Source: Pseudobdellovibrionaceae bacterium
GTDB taxonomy: Bacteria > Bdellovibrionota > Bdellovibrionia > Bdellovibrionales > Bdellovibrionaceae
DNA length: 64,000 nt
Assembly (NCBI GenBank): GCA_019637955.1
Contig: JAHBUS010000001.1
Location: 434,001 to 498,000 of the forward strand
Reading direction: 5' to 3'
A program made the translations under genes and the position numbers. Shown one piece after another: positions 39,618 through 53,744 of the stretch. The first letter of the stretch is position 1, and each line of letters starts with the position of its first letter. The notes under the pieces are model-generated. The model had not been told where the DNA came from, did no database searches, and saw only the letters and a list, made by a program, of their open reading frames with translations.

Positions 39618-40532
39618 ATGAAAAACAAAGCGATGATCCTGCTCTCGATGAATCTTCTGCTTCTCACGCAAGAGAATGCACTCGCGGATGTGAACCTGCA
39701 GGAAGGCAGCTACACTCTTCAAAGACGCGACCGTGTGACGTTCTCCTCCACCAGCCACCTGGATCTTGAGCGCCACTATTCAAGCCGCTCCAATTACAAA
39801 GGTGTTCTCGGGCTCGGCTGGTGCTCGGTTCTTGAGTGGAGGTTCTTCGCTGAACAGCGCGTGCTGCAAAAATGCGACAGCTTCGAGGCGCTCCCCGCCA
39901 AGAGCACCCGCAAAAAGGACGATCTCCATCAGGTGCTCGCATCGAAAACGGAGACTTTAATTTTCGATGCGAGCGCCCGGCTGGTCGGGATCGAACAGCG
40001 CGGCCAGCGCTTTTTACTGAAGCGCGATCTCACGGGACGCGCCACCCTGATTCAAAACCCCAAAGGACTTCTGGCGGCACTCAATGACTCCGCGGCCTTG
40101 CGAAGCCTCACCAAGGTCACGGTCGGTGAGTCAGAGGTCCTTTCTTTTACTTACCAAAACGCCCAACTCTCCCGGGTGGGCGATGACCTTTACACTTACG
40201 ACGCCTCGGCCAACATGACCCGCGTCTACAACAAGGAGGACATCACCCGGATCGAGTACGATCCGGTCAAAGACCAAGTGCTCTTGGTCGCGGACGGCTT
40301 CTGCGAATCCCGCTACTCGTACCAAACGCAGGACTCCCTCTCCCACGTTCGCGACCAAGTTCAAAGCACGCGCGCGTGCGCCAAGCAAAAGCGTGGCGTT
40401 GCCAGCGATGGACCTTTGACGACGACGGTGACCGAGTTCGCTTACGAAAAAATCGGCGGTGGCCAGATCCGCCTCGAAAAAATATCAAATCTTCCTTCCC
40501 TTGAACGACTTTCGATTGAAACCAAGGAGTAA
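39618..40532 (+). CDS. Exported RHS/YD-repeat-like protein
   Basis: I start at 39618 (MKNKAMILLSMNLLLLTQENALA), which has a signal peptide; a longer frame upstream is excluded as it runs through the terminator region. The 304-residue protein resembles the N-terminal part of RHS proteins: RDRVTFSSTSHLDLERHYSSRS...LGLGWCSVLEW (DUF6531 type) and YD-like LSRVGDDLYTYDASANMTRVYN. It is far shorter than normal RHS toxins and has no C-terminal toxin. It ends 4 bases before the subtilase gene's start. Confidence 0.75.
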   Translation: MKNKAMILLSMNLLLLTQENALADVNLQEGSYTLQRRDRVTFSSTSHLDLERHYSSRSNYKGVLGLGWCSVLEWRFFAEQRVLQKCDSFEALPAKSTRKKDDLHQVLASKTETLIFDASARLVGIEQRGQRFLLKRDLTGRATLIQNPKGLLAALNDSAALRSLTKVTVGESEVLSFTYQNAQLSRVGDDLYTYDASANMTRVYNKEDITRIEYDPVKDQVLLVADGFCESRYSYQTQDSLSHVRDQVQSTRACAKQKRGVASDGPLTTTVTEFAYEKIGGGQIRLEKISNLPSLERLSIETKE

Positions 40533-40536
40533 GCCC

Positions 40537-41622
40537 ATGCGAGCCGTGATGATCTTCTTTTTCTTGTTGATCGGCCTCTTGATGACCGTGGAGAACGCCT
40601 TCGCACAGAGCGACTGGAGTTTCGCCGCCACGGACCGGGCGGGCTCCCGACTCTTGGTTTCAAAATCGGCCCCGCTGGTCGTGGCGGTGATCGACACGGG
40701 CGCCGACCTGCTTCACCCGGCGCTCAAGGGCGCGGCCTGGCGCAACCCCGGCGAAACGGGCCTCGACTCCCAAGGCCGCGACAAAGCCTCGAACGGCATC
40801 GACGATGACGGCAATGGGTTTATCGACGACGTGAGCGGGTGGAACTTCGCGGGCAACGACGGATTCATCCACGACAGCCATGGGCACGGCACGCACATCT
40901 CGGGAATCATCAATGCCGTCGCGCCCGGCGTGAAACTCATGACGCTCAAATATTACGACCCCAAATCGAAAGGAGAGGACAATCTCAAAGCCCTGATTCA
41001 AGCCATCCGCTACGCCGTGAAAATGAAAGCCGATGTCATTAACTACAGCGGTGGCGGTTTTGTTCCCAATCTCGAGGAGCGTGCGGCCATCCGCGAAGCT
41101 GAAAAAAAAGGCATCCTCTTTGTCGCCGCCGCCGGCAACGAGGCCACGAACTCCGACAAGCGCCACTTCTACCCGGCCGGTTATGATCTCAACAACATCC
41201 TCTCGGTGACCGCGCACGACCCTCGCATGGACATCCTCCCCAGCTCGAACTATGGCACCCAGACCGTGCACCTCGCGGCGCCCGGCGCGGCGGTCCTCTC
41301 GGCCCTCCCGCAAGGCGCTTGGGGGGCGATGACCGGCACCTCCCAGGCCACGGCCTTCGTGACGGGCGCGGCGTGCCTGCTCAAAACCCAGCGGCCCGAC
41401 CTCAGCGCCAGTGAACTCAAAGCTCAGCTTGAGGACAGCGCCCGATTTGAGACGCAAATGCGCGGCAAGGTGGCATCGGCAGGGCGTCTCGATCTCAGAC
41501 GGACCCTGGCCTTGCAGGACGCGGGTCGAAGTCTTTCGGGGTACCGGCTCGAGACTTACACCGTCCTGCGAAATAAGGCCTTGATGAGGTCTCGACTTGG
41601 ATCTGAAACTTCGTTAAAGTGA
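40537..41622 (+). CDS. Secreted subtilisin-like serine protease (S8)
   Basis: I start at 40537 (MRAVMIFFFL), which has AAGGAG upstream and a signal peptide to residue 24. The 361-residue protein has catalytic D53 (VIDTGAD), H117 (HGHGTHISG) and S269 (GTSQATAFVTG), plus oxyanion N201 (AAAGNEATN). There is no I9-type propeptide, and the catalytic Ser motif is GTSQA rather than GTSMA. It is encoded directly after the RHS-like gene and before a small membrane protein gene. Confidence 0.95.
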   Translation: MRAVMIFFFLLIGLLMTVENAFAQSDWSFAATDRAGSRLLVSKSAPLVVAVIDTGADLLHPALKGAAWRNPGETGLDSQGRDKASNGIDDDGNGFIDDVSGWNFAGNDGFIHDSHGHGTHISGIINAVAPGVKLMTLKYYDPKSKGEDNLKALIQAIRYAVKMKADVINYSGGGFVPNLEERAAIREAEKKGILFVAAAGNEATNSDKRHFYPAGYDLNNILSVTAHDPRMDILPSSNYGTQTVHLAAPGAAVLSALPQGAWGAMTGTSQATAFVTGAACLLKTQRPDLSASELKAQLEDSARFETQMRGKVASAGRLDLRRTLALQDAGRSLSGYRLETYTVLRNKALMRSRLGSETSLK

Positions 41623-47235: not shown

Positions 47236-47622
47236 CTATTTCACCAAACTCGTTTCGATCAAGGCGCCCTTCGATAAAAACTTATGGATCGGGCATTTGT
47301 TGGCGATTGCCAGCAGCGAGGCGCGCTGCTCGTCGGTGAGCTCGCCCTCAAAGCGGATCTCGCGCGCGATGCGGTTCTCGGCGCCCTCCGCGGTGATCTT
47401 GATTTTCACGTCGCTCGAAACCAGCGGGATCCCTTTGCGATTCGCATACATCTGCACGGTGATCGCCGTGCAGGCCGCGAGCGCCGTCTCGAGATAGTCG
47501 TGGGGGTTGGGAGCGGTGTTGGTACCGCCCAGCTTTTCGCTCACGTCCGATCGGAGCTGAAAACCCGGCACGTTGATTTCGAGCGCTAAGCCCTTGGTGA
47601 TTTTGGTGGATTCAACTGACAC
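47236..47622 (-). CDS. OsmC family protein
   Basis: I start at GTG 47622, since GGAGG lies 4 bases upstream; an ATG at 47658 would have no such site. The 128-residue protein matches OsmC: LGGTNTAPNPHDYLETALAACTAITVQMYANR has one cysteine of the redox pair (AAC), and the end shows ITIAN-like NKCPIHKFLSKG with the second Cys. OsmC/Ohr proteins reduce organic hydroperoxides. The gene's stop is three bases from that of hflX. Confidence 0.9.
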   Translation of the reverse strand: MSVESTKITKGLALEINVPGFQLRSDVSEKLGGTNTAPNPHDYLETALAACTAITVQMYANRKGIPLVSSDVKIKITAEGAENRIAREIRFEGELTDEQRASLLAIANKCPIHKFLSKGALIETSLVK

Positions 47623-47804
47623 GACAACCTCCGTTATTCCCGAGAGATTACGCCGCATTCACGGCCCTCGCCTAGTGTTTAGACACGACATCAAGACTGA
47701 AAACGATTTTAACGGCCTTTCGCCGCCGAAACCCGTGGCGCTGCGATTGCTCCTGGTGGCTCGCCGGTCAAAAAAGGCCCGGGCATCCCGGGAGAGGTGT
47801 GTTC

Positions 47805-49151
47805 ATGCGCTTAAAACGACTGCCGTTGGTCGCCCTCATTTCAAGTCTGTGCTCGGCGCCCGCCGTGATGGCCGCCGATATCGATTGGTCGCAGCCCCCT
47901 CTCGCCTGCGTGGAAGACATCGTTCCCAGCGCCCCCTCGCGCCCCTGCCCGAGCCTGAGCCACATCGAAGAGATCACCAAAGAACTCAGCGTTTTTTCGA
48001 CCCTTGAGGAGCAGATCTATTGGACCGCGCCCGAAAATAAACGCGCCCTCAACTACTGCCGCTCGATGGAAATCCTGCGCCGAGAAAAGGCCGCTCCCGG
48101 CTCGATGACCAAAGGGGCCGTGCAGATTTCGTGGATGCGCGCCACCGCGGTGTCGCGCTCGGCGGATAAACTCAAAGCCATCGTCGATGCGAGCAAGCGC
48201 TACCGCATGCCCATTCATGTTTTGGTGGGAGCCTTGACGCAGGAGTCTTTGCTTTCGGACCTGGGCATCTCGGACGACGGCGGCAACTTTTCTTGCGGCG
48301 CCGGGCAAGTGAACTTGCTGGAGTGGTGCCGATGGGCCAACAAGCAAACCCCCGCGCTCAAAACCCAGCTCGGATGGCCCGCGCAGCCCGTGGCCTGCCA
48401 AAGCCTAGATAAAGAATGGGTGCGCCCCTTTCAGGAACTCGCGCTCCAGCAAATGGGTTCGCAGCCCAGCTACCAATTGAACAAGGATCACTTCGCCTTC
48501 ATCCGCATGGCCGACATCCGCGGCAAAATCCCGGGCGCGAGCGAAGCGCAGTTTCAGTCCAACTACGGGCTCGTCAAATCTTTCATCAATCATTGCACGA
48601 ATCCCGTCTTGGGAATCGACGCCAAAGCGCACGAACTCTCGCAGCTGTTCCGCCTGCACATCTCGGCCGGCATGCAGAAGCGCGAAGTTTACCCCGCCGG
48701 AAAATCCTTCCGTCAGCCTCACTGCCGCGTTCAAGATCAGTCGGGCTATTACCCCTTGCACACCGGATGGCTGATGGCCGTGGCCGCCTACAATGCCGGC
48801 CCGCGTGCGACGGACGTGGTTCCTTACTATTACGGCTGGACGAGCGCCGATATGGCGTCGCCCACCAAGATCGCTTCGCTCGATCCCGCCAAACTGGTCG
48901 AGGGACTTTATTACGGCGGTTCGTACAACGCCTTGAGCGATCGCTTCGAGTTCAAGACACTCGCGGGCAAAGAGACGTCGAACCCTGCGTTTAAGCAGTG
49001 CGTGATGCACCAACACGTCGTGCGCATCACCCAGCACGTCACCCGCTCGGACGTACCGAGCCTTTTAAGCACATTTAATGGCAGCAACGGTTGCCGCAAA
49101 GACACCCCGGTCCCGAACTCTCGCGCGAGTGGCGCGGGACGGGCGCGATAA
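47805..49151 (+). CDS. Exported lysozyme/transglycosylase-like protein
   Basis: I start at 47805 (MRLKRLPLVALISSL), since GGAGAGG at 47791 has correct spacing; GTG 47799 is too close. A signal peptide ends near residue 24. The 448-residue protein has lytic-transglycosylase signs: HVLVGALTQESLLSDLG with candidate E147, a GAGQVNLLEWC turn after NFSCG and AVAAYNAGPRATDVV near 327-341. It also has at least eight cysteines, suggesting disulfides. It would cleave peptidoglycan at the cell surface. It is followed by another exported-protein gene. Confidence 0.8.
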   Translation: MRLKRLPLVALISSLCSAPAVMAADIDWSQPPLACVEDIVPSAPSRPCPSLSHIEEITKELSVFSTLEEQIYWTAPENKRALNYCRSMEILRREKAAPGSMTKGAVQISWMRATAVSRSADKLKAIVDASKRYRMPIHVLVGALTQESLLSDLGISDDGGNFSCGAGQVNLLEWCRWANKQTPALKTQLGWPAQPVACQSLDKEWVRPFQELALQQMGSQPSYQLNKDHFAFIRMADIRGKIPGASEAQFQSNYGLVKSFINHCTNPVLGIDAKAHELSQLFRLHISAGMQKREVYPAGKSFRQPHCRVQDQSGYYPLHTGWLMAVAAYNAGPRATDVVPYYYGWTSADMASPTKIASLDPAKLVEGLYYGGSYNALSDRFEFKTLAGKETSNPAFKQCVMHQHVVRITQHVTRSDVPSLLSTFNGSNGCRKDTPVPNSRASGAGRAR

Positions 49152-49166
49152 GAAAGGACTTTGATC

Positions 49167-50348
49167 ATGATCTCAAAATTTTTGCTCCCAATGGCCACCG
49201 CGCTCTTGGCCTCCACGGCCCAAGCCGCTTACTTCCAAGCGGATCTTCCCGCCGCCAATGCCAATGCCGCCATCGGCACGCAGCTCATCATCGCCGGCAA
49301 AGGCCTTGAAGTGGGCGATCAATGGCTGCGCGCGGCCCACACGCAGGCACTCTTGTTCAAAGACAAGTCCTCTTCGGGTCCCATCCGCGTGATCGGTGCC
49401 ATTGAAAACTCGCGCACGCTCTCGATGCTCGCCAATTGGGGCTACAAAAACGTCAAGGTGTTCGAGCAGACCTTCACCGGCTCGCGCCTCAACGATCTCT
49501 TCAAAAAAACGGGCCGCATCGCCTCGATGGATTGGATCGGGCACAACGGCGCGGTCTTGGGTTTTGTTCTCGAAGATTACTCGAACCGTTACTTCTTAGA
49601 TGATGCCCGCGCCCTCTCGAGCATCGCCGGTCAAATGACCGCCGACTCTTATGTCCGCGTGATGGGATGCAACACCGGTTGGAACCTGGCACCCGCGATG
49701 GCCAAGGCCCTGCGCGTGCCCGTGGCGGGAACGTTCACGTTCGCCGACATCCAGAAGCTGCACGAAACGAAAGAGTGGTTCTATCACGACGAAGGCCGCT
49801 ATCCCGGCGGCAAGTTCTTAAAGCGCAATGAGCTGTCTTACGTCACGCCGATCAACTGCGAAGCGGACGGCGGTTGCTTGCGCCTGAAGCCCGTGCACAT
49901 CGCTTACCAGGGCAAACACGGCAATTACGGCGGCACGGTTCCGTTTATCAAGTACTTCTGCGGCGATGTGGGCTCGGCCGACTGCAGCCGACGCATGGCG
50001 ATCTCGCTGCTCCAATTCGCGAGCACCGCCTCGTTCGCGAGCCTCCCGACCGAAGCCCAGTTCCAGGAGATCTTGGCCGATCACTTCTGCCCCGGCGTGA
50101 AAGACATGGCCAAACGCCAAGCGTGCCGTCAGTCCATTCGCGATCACGTCAGCGGCAACCGCTCTTTGGCGAAGACCTTCACCACCTCCAGCGGCCACAC
50201 CCTGAGCTGCACCATGAAGTCTTGCGAAGTGAAAATGGACTGTTCTGGGGGCTCTTGCATTATGGTCGGAACCGGCAAGCCCGGCACATCGACGATCTTC
50301 GTGGATGAGCTCAATGCTTACATCCAGGGTTTCCGTTCGCTCCGCTAA
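49167..50348 (+). CDS. Exported protein with HNG and GCNTG motifs (possible clan CD-like)
   Basis: I start at 49167 (MISKFLLPMATALLA), since AAGGA lies 9 bases upstream. The 393-residue protein has a signal peptide. It contains a hydrophobic strand followed by H126-N-G128 (MDWIGHNGAVLGFVLED) and then C168 in YVRVMGCNTGWNLAPAM, with VPVAGTFTF after it. The His-Gly and Gly-Cys arrangement in adjacent strands is like clan CD cysteine proteases (caspase, gingipain, C80), but no overall match can be made. The C-terminal half has six cysteines. It is encoded next to the transglycosylase-like gene. Confidence 0.75.
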   Translation: MISKFLLPMATALLASTAQAAYFQADLPAANANAAIGTQLIIAGKGLEVGDQWLRAAHTQALLFKDKSSSGPIRVIGAIENSRTLSMLANWGYKNVKVFEQTFTGSRLNDLFKKTGRIASMDWIGHNGAVLGFVLEDYSNRYFLDDARALSSIAGQMTADSYVRVMGCNTGWNLAPAMAKALRVPVAGTFTFADIQKLHETKEWFYHDEGRYPGGKFLKRNELSYVTPINCEADGGCLRLKPVHIAYQGKHGNYGGTVPFIKYFCGDVGSADCSRRMAISLLQFASTASFASLPTEAQFQEILADHFCPGVKDMAKRQACRQSIRDHVSGNRSLAKTFTTSSGHTLSCTMKSCEVKMDCSGGSCIMVGTGKPGTSTIFVDELNAYIQGFRSLR

Positions 50349-50417: not shown

Positions 50418-51674
50418 ATGAAATCGTTTGCGCTCAGTTCGCTCGCGGCCCTCTTGATTTTGGGCTTCGGGATTTTGGCGATCAAAGACATGAAATCCTC
50501 GGATGCCGAGACCGGCACGATCACCGACGAGTACGAGGTGAACACCCGGCGTCCGCGTCAGCCTCTGATGGAACTCCCCGACGACGTCCCCTCGGACATC
50601 ACGTTCACGCCCCTGGGCGAGGACACCTTTACCGACTGCCTTCATCCCCAATCAAAGACGCCCATTCACATGAAAGGGTTCGTCTACAAAAAAGTCTTCG
50701 CGCAGACGATCGCCAAGATGGTCGATCTTGCGGCCTACGTCTTTTACCCTCCGGGCTACAACCCCGAAAGCGGCCCGCGACTTCCGGTCGCGGCTTTCTT
50801 TCACGGCGGCGGGTGGAACATGGGAAGCCCGGTTCTCTGGTTTCCGGCGGCGAACTATTTCGCCTCTCGCGGCATGATCGCCGTTTCGTTTCAGTACCGC
50901 ATCCGCGACTTTCACCACGTGATCGAGGGTGAGCGCACCCGCCCTGGCTACTGGCCCGCCGACACGATCGCCGATGCCAAATCCGCGATGCGCTGGCTGC
51001 GCAAGAACGGCGCGGCTTTGGGCATCGACACCGAGAAAATTGCGGCCGCGGGCGACTCCGCCGGGGGAAACTTGGCCTTCGCGGCGTGGTACGATCCTTA
51101 CCACACGGACGACCGGGGCGAGAATCTACTGATCTCGCGCAAGCCGAATCTGCTGATTGGTTTTTACCCCTCGCTGCAAACCAAATTTCCGTCGGCGCGA
51201 TTTCATTTGAACGAGCTTCTCGAAAAGGCCGACGGTTCTCCGAAAACGCTGATCTTGCATGGCAAAGACGACGCAACCATCGATCCCGAACTCTCGCGAC
51301 ATTTTTGCGAGCGCGTGAACGCACGCTTCGGCAAGGACACTTGCGAGTACCAAGGCCTGAAAGGCCTGGGCCACGCTTTTGTGAAGCAGCGCCTTTTCGA
51401 TGCGGGCGGAAACCTCGTCAACGCCTCCACCGATGCGATGCTCGGGCTTTCGCAGATGGACTTGTTCCTGCAAAAAAACGGTTACCTCCGCGGGGGCGGC
51501 CACATCGAGAAGAAAGCCTTCCAGGTGCCACCGCACTGTCAAATGATGAGTTACGCCTCCCCGCCCGTTTCGCAGTGGGTAACGAAGTATGGCTATCAAT
51601 TCACCGGCCCCATCACGGTGATCCCGCAGAGCAATCACGCGCTCCGTCTCGCGCAGCCTAACGACGCACAATAA
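50418..51674 (+). CDS. Membrane-anchored or exported alpha/beta-hydrolase (esterase)
   Basis: The 418-residue protein has an N-terminal hydrophobic segment (residues 4-20, FALSSLAALLILGFGILAI). The alpha/beta-hydrolase domain has HGGGW in VAAFFHGGGWNMG, the nucleophile GDSAGGN, the acid in ILHGKDDATIDPE and the catalytic His in GLGHAF. It is HSL/BD-FAE-like. The ~70 residues after the catalytic His (LRGGGHIEKKAFQV...) are unusual. It is downstream of the two exported-protein genes and its substrate is unknown. Confidence 0.88.
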   Translation: MKSFALSSLAALLILGFGILAIKDMKSSDAETGTITDEYEVNTRRPRQPLMELPDDVPSDITFTPLGEDTFTDCLHPQSKTPIHMKGFVYKKVFAQTIAKMVDLAAYVFYPPGYNPESGPRLPVAAFFHGGGWNMGSPVLWFPAANYFASRGMIAVSFQYRIRDFHHVIEGERTRPGYWPADTIADAKSAMRWLRKNGAALGIDTEKIAAAGDSAGGNLAFAAWYDPYHTDDRGENLLISRKPNLLIGFYPSLQTKFPSARFHLNELLEKADGSPKTLILHGKDDATIDPELSRHFCERVNARFGKDTCEYQGLKGLGHAFVKQRLFDAGGNLVNASTDAMLGLSQMDLFLQKNGYLRGGGHIEKKAFQVPPHCQMMSYASPPVSQWVTKYGYQFTGPITVIPQSNHALRLAQPNDAQ

Positions 51675-51720: not shown

Positions 51721-53046
51721 ATGAAAAAGCACGCTTTGATCTTGAGCCTTTCTTTGTTCTGCGGGTTGGCGGCTGCGCAAGAGCCGCCGCCCCAAACGTG
51801 GGTGGACCTTCCGCTCTTGGACGTCCCTTTCAACACCGATTCGAGCTACTTTCCGGCGACGTTCAGCATGCGGCAGTCGATGCAGCTCTCCAACAGCTAC
51901 TACCAAAACATCCACCGCTGGATCGCGGGCGATCCCACCGAAGACAAAACGAACTTTCGCGAGTTCGTTTACCTCGCGCTCTTCGATTACATCGGCTCCA
52001 CCACGCCTCTCAGTAGCGGCTGGGTTCACGAAGAGTGGCACCGCTCGGTGCTCACGCGGCGCCGGATTGGCAGTTTCAATGATATGAACACGTTTCCGTT
52101 CGGCCAGTCGGTGATTGCCGTGAGCCAAGTGGACGATCAAGACCTGGTCAATTTGAAGCGTGATCACCCCGCCGAGCAGGTGCGTCTGAGCGCGGCCGGC
52201 ATGGAGTCGCAGATTCAGCAGAATCTGTCTTTGCAAGAAAATCTGTTCTTTAAAAAATCGCGTTCCGAGGACCGCCCGCTCTATTGGCTCAATGCCGTGG
52301 GCGTGATCGGTTACATGTCGACGTGCGCGAGCACCGAATCGGACCGCACCACCGACGACGAAAATCGCGATGACGGTGCCGATATTCCCCGGCGCGATTT
52401 CACGGGCCTGGACTGCAACGCTTGGGTCTACGATTTGTTCCGGCCCGATGAACCTTACACCGCGCGCGGCGTGCACCCGTCGGGCGTGGGCATTGATCGG
52501 TATATCCGTTTCTCTGATCTGAACGAGAAGGAGCAAAACTTTTTAAAACTGCAGGCGCGCTACTCGCTTTTAAATTTGGCCGATCCGTTCTTGATCGGCT
52601 GGAATGAGTTTCACACCGAGATCAACGGCCGCCCCTTGCGCTGGAACGCGAAGTTGAATCACATGCTGACCTCGTTTGGCGCGACGATCGACGCGCATCT
52701 TTTCTTGGACCTCGAGGGCGATCAGTATTTGGTGACCTGGCACAATGGGATGACCGACACGCGCTACATGCCTGGGCTCAGCGTGAAACAAGTGGACCTG
52801 GCGCTGAACGAACATTGGTTCGCCACTCCCGCTTTAACGGCCTGGCAGCAGCCCAAGGATCAGCGCCTCGAAGGATCGAGCACCGACATCCTTGTCGATG
52901 CCTCTCTGGAGCTGGCGTACCGCTCGAGCCGTTGGGTGAGTTATTACTTCGGCGTTGAAGCGAAGAACAAAGGCTGGGTCGCGGGAAATGTTTACTTGGA
53001 TGACAACGTCACCGGCTGGGCTGGTTTGAGAGCAACGGTGTACTGA
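51721..53046 (+). CDS. Exported HExxH-containing envelope protein
   Basis: The 441-residue protein has a signal peptide (cleavage near AAAQ20). It contains H103-E-E-W-H107, a zinc-protease-like HExxH, in SSGWVHEEWHRSVLTRR. The C-terminal half (about 290-441) reads as alternating amphipathic strands ending in GLRATVY, as outer-membrane beta-barrels do. I do not recognise the family. Two cysteines (STCAST, LDCNAW) lie in the middle. It ends one base before the methyltransferase start (TGATG overlap). Confidence 0.75.
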   Translation: MKKHALILSLSLFCGLAAAQEPPPQTWVDLPLLDVPFNTDSSYFPATFSMRQSMQLSNSYYQNIHRWIAGDPTEDKTNFREFVYLALFDYIGSTTPLSSGWVHEEWHRSVLTRRRIGSFNDMNTFPFGQSVIAVSQVDDQDLVNLKRDHPAEQVRLSAAGMESQIQQNLSLQENLFFKKSRSEDRPLYWLNAVGVIGYMSTCASTESDRTTDDENRDDGADIPRRDFTGLDCNAWVYDLFRPDEPYTARGVHPSGVGIDRYIRFSDLNEKEQNFLKLQARYSLLNLADPFLIGWNEFHTEINGRPLRWNAKLNHMLTSFGATIDAHLFLDLEGDQYLVTWHNGMTDTRYMPGLSVKQVDLALNEHWFATPALTAWQQPKDQRLEGSSTDILVDASLELAYRSSRWVSYYFGVEAKNKGWVAGNVYLDDNVTGWAGLRATVY

Positions 53047-53744
53047 TGGCAAAACCCACCGCCGACTTTTTCACCCCCGAACTCGCCGCCCACTACGATG
53101 AACGCAACCGCAAGCTCTCGGCGATCAGCGAGAATCTTCACTTTTTAACACGTCTGGTGCTCGAGCGGCTCCCCGCGCGGGCCCTGATCTTGAGCGTGGG
53201 GGCCGGAACCGGTGCGGACATCCTGCCACTCGCGCGCGCCTTTCCGGAATGGCGCTTTGTGGCCGTGGAGCCGTCGAAATCGATGCTCGAAGTTTGCCGC
53301 GAACGCCTGACAACAGAGGGTTTCGCGAGCCGGTGCGAGTTCATTCATGGCTACGCAAGCGATGTGCCCGCGAAAGCCGAATTCGATGCGTGCTTGTCGA
53401 TTTTGGTGGGTCACTTTGTCGGCCGCGAGGACCGCGCCGGTTTTTATAAGAATTTGGTGGACCATCTCAAGCCGGGCGGGACGCTCGTGAACGCCGAGAT
53501 CAGTTTTGATCTCAACTCGGCGCAGTTCCCCTCGATGCTCAAAAATTGGGAGAAGGTGCAAACCTTGATGGGCGCAACGCCCGAGAGCCTGCAGACTCTG
53601 CCCAAAACACTCAAAGAGATTTTGACCGTGCTCCCACCCGAAGAGACCGAAGCTTTGATTCGAACCTCCGGGGTCGATCTTCCGGTGAGGTTCTTTCAAG
53701 CCTTTCTGATTTGTGCCTGGCACGGAACGAAGACGGTGCGTTGA
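53046..53744 (+). CDS. Class I SAM-dependent methyltransferase
   Basis: The 232-residue protein has SAM-binding motif [21 protein letters not shown] (residues 45-64), then [15 protein letters not shown] and [12 protein letters not shown] final CAWHGTKT is encoded by bases with an 11-base match to the 35-bp repeat's core. It has no signal peptide. The substrate is unknown. It overlaps the exported HExxH gene and the DUF188 gene each by one base, implying a three-gene translational chain. Confidence 0.9.

Follow-up and report, generated by a model that had tools for sequence, protein, structure and literature searches.

A candidate exported caspase-fold cysteine peptidase and a putative divergent transglycosylase encoded 15 bases apart in a Pseudobdellovibrionaceae bacterium

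Two genes for large, cysteine-rich, signal-bearing proteins, called A and B in the following, lie side by side in a stretch of 64,000 nucleotides from a Pseudobdellovibrionaceae bacterium (the window; G000:C1:434001-498000, genome of 3.77 Mb in 14 contigs), and they raise the question of which enzymes they encode and whether these enzymes share a task. Protein B is most likely a member of an undescribed family of caspase-fold cysteine peptidases, a reading held with good confidence, and protein A is most likely, with somewhat less confidence, a divergent lytic transglycosylase that would be new to the lysozyme-like enzymes; catalysis is predicted in both. As an explanation of the locus as a whole, a secreted clan CD peptidase and an SLT-like transglycosylase that act on the wall appear fairly probable, and joint action of the two is uncertain. 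An earlier note on this DNA had proposed the same two enzyme classes working as a pair. The classes were borne out by motifs, profiles and, for B, fold matches, and a conserved pairing was not, with A and B adjacent at 1 of 24 A loci. The features on which the argument draws are as follows.

47805..49151, + strand: gene A, SLT/lysozyme-like, putatively disulfide-rich, export predicted, 448 amino acids, signal at about residues 1-23 (open reading frame (ORF); family in 26/368 genomes; alignment of 24; SLT profile alignment)
48243..48245, + strand: E147 codon of A, proposed catalytic acid, aligned with the Glu of the SLT 'ES' (24/24)
48291..48314, + strand: A motif S163-C-G-A-G-Q-V-N170 (S163, C164, G165, Q168 and N170 each 24/24; G167 variable)
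48786..48800, + strand: A motif A328-Y-N-A-G332 (Y329, N330 and G332 24/24; A331 23/24), aligned with the SLT 'AYN'
49154..49158, + strand: AAGGA, likely ribosome-binding site of B, in the gap between the A stop and the B ATG (sequence)
49167..50348, + strand: gene B, predicted exported clan-CD-like (caspase-fold) cysteine peptidase candidate, 393 amino acids, signal at about residues 1-20 (ORF; family in 73/368 genomes; model; fold comparison)
49542..49544, + strand: H126 codon of B, proposed catalytic His (62/62)
49668..49670, + strand: C168 codon of B, proposed nucleophile and single unpaired Cys (62/62; Cys pairing)
49857..50260, + strand: cysteine-rich C-terminal region of B, C231 to C364, with five co-varying Cys pairs, partly poor in the model (Cys pattern; model)

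Both genes are on the plus strand and their ORFs hold 11 cysteines each. The gap from the A stop to the B ATG measures 15 bases, with AAGGA 8 bases 5' of the ATG, and the signal sequences were read by eye as ..APAVMA/AD in A and ..STAQA/AY in B. The residues singled out in the earlier note were recovered with the same numbering, namely E147, SCGAGQVN (163-170) and AYNAG (328-332) in A, and H126-N-G and G-C168-N-T-G in B. Their conservation goes beyond chance, with E147, G165, Q168, N170, Y329, N330, and G332 of A found in 24 of 24 proteins and H126 and C168 of B in 62 of 62.

Relatives of B were found in 30 of the 66 genomes of the family (which, as grouped here, includes Bdellovibrio), in 36 of 143 of the class and in 73 of 368 of the phylum Bdellovibrionota. 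These and the other genome counts are lower bounds, and in some searches only the best candidates per genome were scored. Within the genus Bdellovibrio (g4, G003 to G026), the family occurred in 21 of 24 genomes, with no match in G004, G014 and G017. H126 and C168 are identical in all 36 aligned family-level relatives, an alignment that comprises 36 of 37 matched genes; the one left out (L011) shows both motifs by eye. The two residues remained identical in 62 of 62 proteins after 26 more distant relatives had joined, which were taken from 27 distant regions, one of them (L193) without a profile-recognised B ORF. Nine columns were invariant in a 31-row alignment (G46, H126, C168, C231, C237, Y247, K262, C308, and C320), and H126 is the sole invariant one among the nine histidines of B. 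In the joint alignment of 62, G46 was down to 49 and G132 to 54. The His-Cys spacing is 42 in B and 41 in 24 of the 36 relatives, with a range of 32 to 44; in human legumain it is 41.

Four of the 26 distant relatives matched weakly, at E 1e-8 to 2e-7, and probably represent a separate subfamily. Three weak relatives (L119 5563-6888, L120 6226-7554, and L200 4899-6287) form a subgroup with GHSG and HAC[RN][ST] motifs, and in two of them (L119 and L120) the gene that follows in the same orientation resembles, by eye, a glutamate/aspartate racemase (MurI-like; a wall-precursor enzyme). A further exported ORF at L083 11573-12523, about 1.8 kb beyond the A gene of that locus and on the opposite strand, carries the motifs NGHSRFGGG and FSCASS, possibly another clan-CD-like His-Cys pair as judged by eye.

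The cysteine pattern singles out the same residue of B as the motif. Exported proteins retain few free thiols. Counted from the column of residue 21 onward, the number of cysteines was odd (9 or 11) in all 36 family-level proteins, and the pairs C231/C237, C265/C273, C308/C320, C348/C353, and C359/C364 were jointly present or jointly absent in these without exception. The difference in C265/C273 corresponds to one well-supported tree branch, while C348/C353 is missing in L070 and C359/C364 in L067, L068, and L069. Three of the pairs still vary strictly together in the wider set of 62. The odd totals and the five co-varying pairs thus leave C168 as the single unpaired Cys of B, and the disulfides predicted from this co-variation would be local ones.

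An AlphaFold2 model of B was built from five sequences (B and four Bdellovibrio relatives) and reached a mean predicted local distance difference test score (pLDDT) of 60.1 and a predicted template modelling score of 0.64, with the ten-residue blocks within 20-120 and 150-190 mostly at pLDDT 65 to 85. Its N-terminal part shows strand 38-43, a helix, strand 73-79, a helix, strand 94-100, a helix, and strand 118-124. The latter leads into the proposed active-site part, where H126, a hairpin (132-143), helix 147-154, strand 157-166, C168, helix 174-182, and strand 186-190 follow one another. In the clan CD core as described in PMC4357240, strands 3 and 4 of the sheet end in the catalytic His and Cys, and a small sheet is inserted between strand 3 and helix 3. 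The model, at its low mean confidence, shows this order of strands, His, small sheet, helix and Cys, and differs in an extra strand-helix unit (94-115) before the His strand. The invariant His-Cys dyad of the clan is present in 62 of 62 aligned relatives. The caspase-like sandwich on which the earlier note had made its clan CD claim depend is seen in the model as well, with H126 after one strand, C168 after the next, and the hairpin between them.

Fold comparison by VIA-align was run on the first 1000 Foldseek rows, of which the best 50 were viewed. Rows 1 to 41 of these were legumain-like proteins, SAVED-CHAT, the glycosylphosphatidylinositol (GPI) transamidase complex, Tce1, metacaspase, C11 protease, and caspase, at Z 9.0 to 7.0; CHAT and GPI transamidase are taken here to be clan CD members. 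The first unrelated structure appeared at row 42 (Z 7.0), and dehydrogenases and reductases accounted for 6 of the 50 rows, none of them above row 42. With clan CD structures as the best VIA-align matches, the model speaks for the clan-CD-like character of B put forward earlier.

Several observations weigh against this assignment of B. The model is of low mean confidence, with 143 of 393 residues below 50 and five input sequences. No Foldseek match of the model reached E 0.001; a malate dehydrogenase came first, and the top rows mix it with BdcA, legumain, and C11 protease at E 0.013 to 0.03. The VIA-align margin of clan CD over unrelated folds is modest, and a Z below about 8 may reflect a mere common arrangement. 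In the cysteine pattern, the weak relatives L119, L120, and L200 lack C237 only and C320 only, that is, one member of each of two pairs, and the number of cysteines is even in 3 of the 62 proteins of the wider set. Finally, the Gly that usually comes after the catalytic His of clan CD is replaced in B, in which H126 is followed by Asn. In nearly all relatives this position holds Asn, Ser or Ala, with Gly in 2 of 36 (L053 and L066), and a Gly before the His occurs in B and in many, not all, relatives. PMC12445089 places the clan CD Gly ahead of the His, and behind it for clostripain and YabG; the feature is thus not uniform across the clan.

Among known families, DUF4347 (PF14252) comes closest to B in sequence, with a His after one strand and a Cys after the next as in B. 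The Pfam cut-off was not reached by B or by the 31 relatives tested; B itself gave no match, and 2 of the 31 relatives matched within E 0.1, the better of them at E 0.013 (15.7 bits versus a cut-off of 24.6). The B profile matched three DUF4347-like proteins of the class, two of which exceed the Pfam cut-off, at E 0.0042, 2e-4, and 0.0062, compared with 0.43, 0.36, and 0.14 for the reversed controls, and the alignments placed His on His and Cys on Cys. The solved chain of the Pseudomonas aeruginosa type VI secretion system effector Tce1 matched the model at row 34 with Z 7.8 over 138 residues at 16% identity, and its root-mean-square deviation (rmsd) of 3.0 Å was the lowest within the first 41 VIA-align rows. 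Tce1 is stated to be PA0256 and, with its His-Cys pair, a putative cysteine protease (PMC13323088), and PA0256 is said to contain DUF4347 (PMC8262886). B differs in its predicted signal sequence and in the cysteine-rich region at its C terminus, and no link to a type VI secretion system was seen, none having been searched for. As B lies below the DUF4347 cut-off, yet shares the aligned dyad and the fold match to Tce1, it is best seen as a sister of DUF4347 within clan CD and not as a member.

Legumain and its kin (MEROPS C13, clan CD) gave the first VIA-align row and the best fold match to B, with Z 9.0 over 175 residues at 3.7 Å; the sequence identity is 9%, and B had no hidden Markov model match to a solved chain. 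Clostripain, gingipain, caspase, metacaspase, and the MARTX protease domain (C11, C25, C14, and C80) share the order of strand, His, and Cys with B, and several of them are in the fold list. B has no sequence match to these families and does not keep their Gly after the His.

Searches of four family libraries (Pfam, NCBIfam, PHROGs, and PADLOC) left both A and B without a meaningful match. The sequence search of the Protein Data Bank (PDB) gave no match for B to E 1 and none for the B profile to E 5. Three PDB matches of A were judged to be chance; the best, at E 0.0066 to an adenylate cyclase, aligned outside the proposed active-site order. The phage and plasmid collections, searched with B only, held no match, and a single-protein scan of genome contigs with B returned 15 pattern matches, none of which was a relative. 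No description of the B family was found in the Bdellovibrio literature searched, a search outside which subscription papers and supplements lay. The cysteine proteases listed in a secretome study (PMC11003981) are Bd0084, Bd1380, and Bd3070.

Protein A is rarer; its relatives were found in 2 of 66 genomes at family level, in 5 of 143 at class level, and in 26 of 368 at phylum level. Its alignment of 24 proteins was assembled from 19 ORFs out of 20 regions (L160 had no A ORF), four further loci, and the window. Q146, E147, G165, Q168, N170, Y329, N330, and G332 are identical in all 24, and position 167 varies between G, A, and S. The order that characterises SLT domains (PF01464, of the GH23-like lysozyme superfamily), in which a catalytic Glu within an ES motif is followed by G-x-x-Q and then Y-N-x-G, is kept in 24 of 24. 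The A profile aligned in the expected order with eight SLT domains of the same genome, with 2e-4 for the segment around Y-N-x-G and 3e-4 for the segment in which E147 falls on the Glu of 'ES', compared with 0.15 for the next alternative, 0.17 for the reversed profile, and 0.28 for B, all of these being E-values of small searches. Conversely, a profile of these eight domains, run with filters off, reached the inclusion threshold in 18 of 24 A proteins, and the A protein of the window scored E 0.0078. The transglycosylase-like character claimed for A earlier thus draws its support from motif conservation and profile alignment and not from a structure. The number of cysteines is even (10 or 8) in all 24 A relatives, with C48/C85 jointly absent in three and C399/C430 in one, a pattern that suggests five conserved disulfide candidates.

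Against the kinship of A with SLT stand its distance from the library models and its structure prediction. None of five A proteins reached the Pfam cut-off for SLT: A and two relatives had no match, and two others scored E 0.083 and 0.087 (12.9 and 12.8 bits versus 21.3). The A profile had no match in the PDB (best E 0.18), and the single-sequence structure model of A has a pLDDT of 35.6 and its fold is unreadable. Protein A further differs from SLT domains in the more than 130 residues between its Gln motif and Y-N-x-G and in its disulfide candidates. The wall enzymes of Bdellovibrio reportedly include the lysozyme DslA and a secreted MltA-like transglycosylase. These resemble A, in its predicted role, as exported peptidoglycan cutters; unlike them, A was not found in the 24 Bdellovibrio genomes searched.

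In the mechanism that we infer, which covers export, co-transcription, catalysis, substrates, joint action, and place of action of A and B, the latter would be a secreted cysteine endopeptidase with the clan CD (caspase/haemoglobinase) fold. H126 would activate the thiol of C168 for attack on a peptide bond, and the other ten cysteines would be joined in five local disulfides, giving the protein stiffness outside the cytoplasm. Protein A, presumably co-transcribed with B in view of the 15-base gap, would be a secreted, disulfide-braced, divergent relative of SLT enzymes, with E147 as the residue that cuts the glycan chain of peptidoglycan. Acting jointly, A and B may make openings in the mesh of the wall and trim proteins that sit within it or on it, either in the own envelope or in that of prey.

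The chemistry of B could also be a different one. Legumain-type ligases, GPI transamidase, and PorU are transfer-type enzymes that fix proteins, and if B were a transpeptidase or transamidase, the thioester on C168 would be passed to an amine and proteins would be fixed to the envelope. The best fold matches do include peptide asparaginyl ligases and the GPI transamidase complex. These enzymes lie among hydrolases of the same fold, so that the fold match cannot separate a protease from a transpeptidase, and no sorting-signal family was searched for; on balance such an activity is considered very improbable. Only marginally less improbable is that B is a binding or structural protein which has kept the fold and the dyad, and that A binds peptidoglycan without cutting it. 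The roles of both are predicted from sequence and most of B outside the core has no recognised fold, which is in keeping with binding; H126 and C168, on the other hand, are the best conserved residues of B (62/62) where most other positions vary, which speaks against a mere binding role.

A more serious alternative is that A and B are true to their classes and share no task, being chance neighbours on one transcript. The distribution of the genes speaks for it, and against the functional pair that the earlier note had proposed, which does not extend beyond this genome. A relative of B stood beside A at 1 of 24 A loci, the window alone, and A was found near none of the 35 other family-level B loci and in none of the 27 more distant regions. 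Of the 26 genomes with A, 10 also carry B where about 5 would be expected; this excess was set aside because a single genus supplies 8 of the 10. What chance leaves unexplained is the 15-base gap with its ribosome-binding site and a shared companion of the two genes. An exported (by eye), weakly CHAP-like family (E 0.075 and 0.083) follows A after 1 base in G049 (L054) and B after 213 bases in G022 (L037), on the same strand in both cases. The coincidence was spotted post hoc with one locus each, and the family is widespread, occurring in 118 of 368 genomes. Chance neighbourhood is accordingly rated just short of an even prospect. At L078 of G086, A is followed by a transglutaminase-elicitor-like ORF that stays below the cut-off (E 1.3e-4, 21.4 bits versus 25). 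There are hints, no more, that A and B accompany various exported hydrolases.

In the window, the third-position GC of A and B (0.757 and 0.777) is similar to the values of 0.744-0.761 in three neighbours. The 5' flank is a convergent OsmC-like ORF (47236-47658, minus strand; named by eye). No promoter-like site was found in the scan of the A/B locus, and the terminator scan gave sites at chance level, none of them listed on the plus strand between A and B. Downstream of B, on the same strand and with short gaps, follow an abhydrolase gene (50418-51674; Pfam BD-FAE), a gene for an exported, weakly MipA-like protein (51721-53046), and a methyltransferase gene (53046-53744), which may form one transcript with B. 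About 6 kb 5' of gene A lies an exported subtilisin-like protease (S8-type by eye; 40459-41622), relatives of which are upstream of B homologues in L040, L041, L044, and L046.

Elsewhere, the B family has other recurrent neighbours. At 6 of 36 B loci (L045, L050, L062, L063, L064, and L065), the B homologue is preceded on its own strand by a gene pair of MAT-fibre-like kind (clusters 9 and 10); with one member scanned each, cluster 9 has a Peptidase_S74 domain and the exported second gene is PA14-like. A place for B in the MAT-fibre neighbourhood was considered and is not claimed because some 30 kb separate the fibre from B in G003 and the fibre is absent at most B loci. A trio of a two-domain repeat protein with TH(S/T)H motifs, a B homologue, and a CVGCH (CxxCH) protein occurs in L040, L041, and L114, and thus in two families; its genes overlap by 4 bases in L114. 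In G003, a 110-amino-acid exported protein (L140 16249-16581) is divergent from the B homologue and has no Pfam or MliC match, and MliC was also not found in G003. Bd3155 is reported as up about sixfold at prey attachment and as a predicted lysozyme inhibitor (PMC12546842). For the HD100 member of the B family, counting genes back from Bd3179 leads to about Bd3150 to Bd3158; by this rough count Bd3155 may be the B homologue itself or one of its neighbours.

Bdellovibrio has to soften, seal, and finally burst the prey envelope, and only some of the proteases and wall enzymes that serve this purpose are known. A bolder extension of the present reading, rated as rather unlikely, is that B founds a phylum-wide family of exported caspase-fold proteases that are sent into the prey envelope to cleave chosen envelope proteins. 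It would add, at the same low standing, that swapped partners (transglycosylase-like or CHAP-like) cut the wall, giving a modular prey-opening set missed by annotation. For the proteases that act on the prey envelope, the B family is a direct candidate, with a clear dyad, a presence in 21 of 24 Bdellovibrio genomes (B. bacteriovorus kdesi included), and no Pfam or NCBIfam name. If the assignments are true, clan CD would gain a family with B, and the lysozyme-like enzymes one with A.

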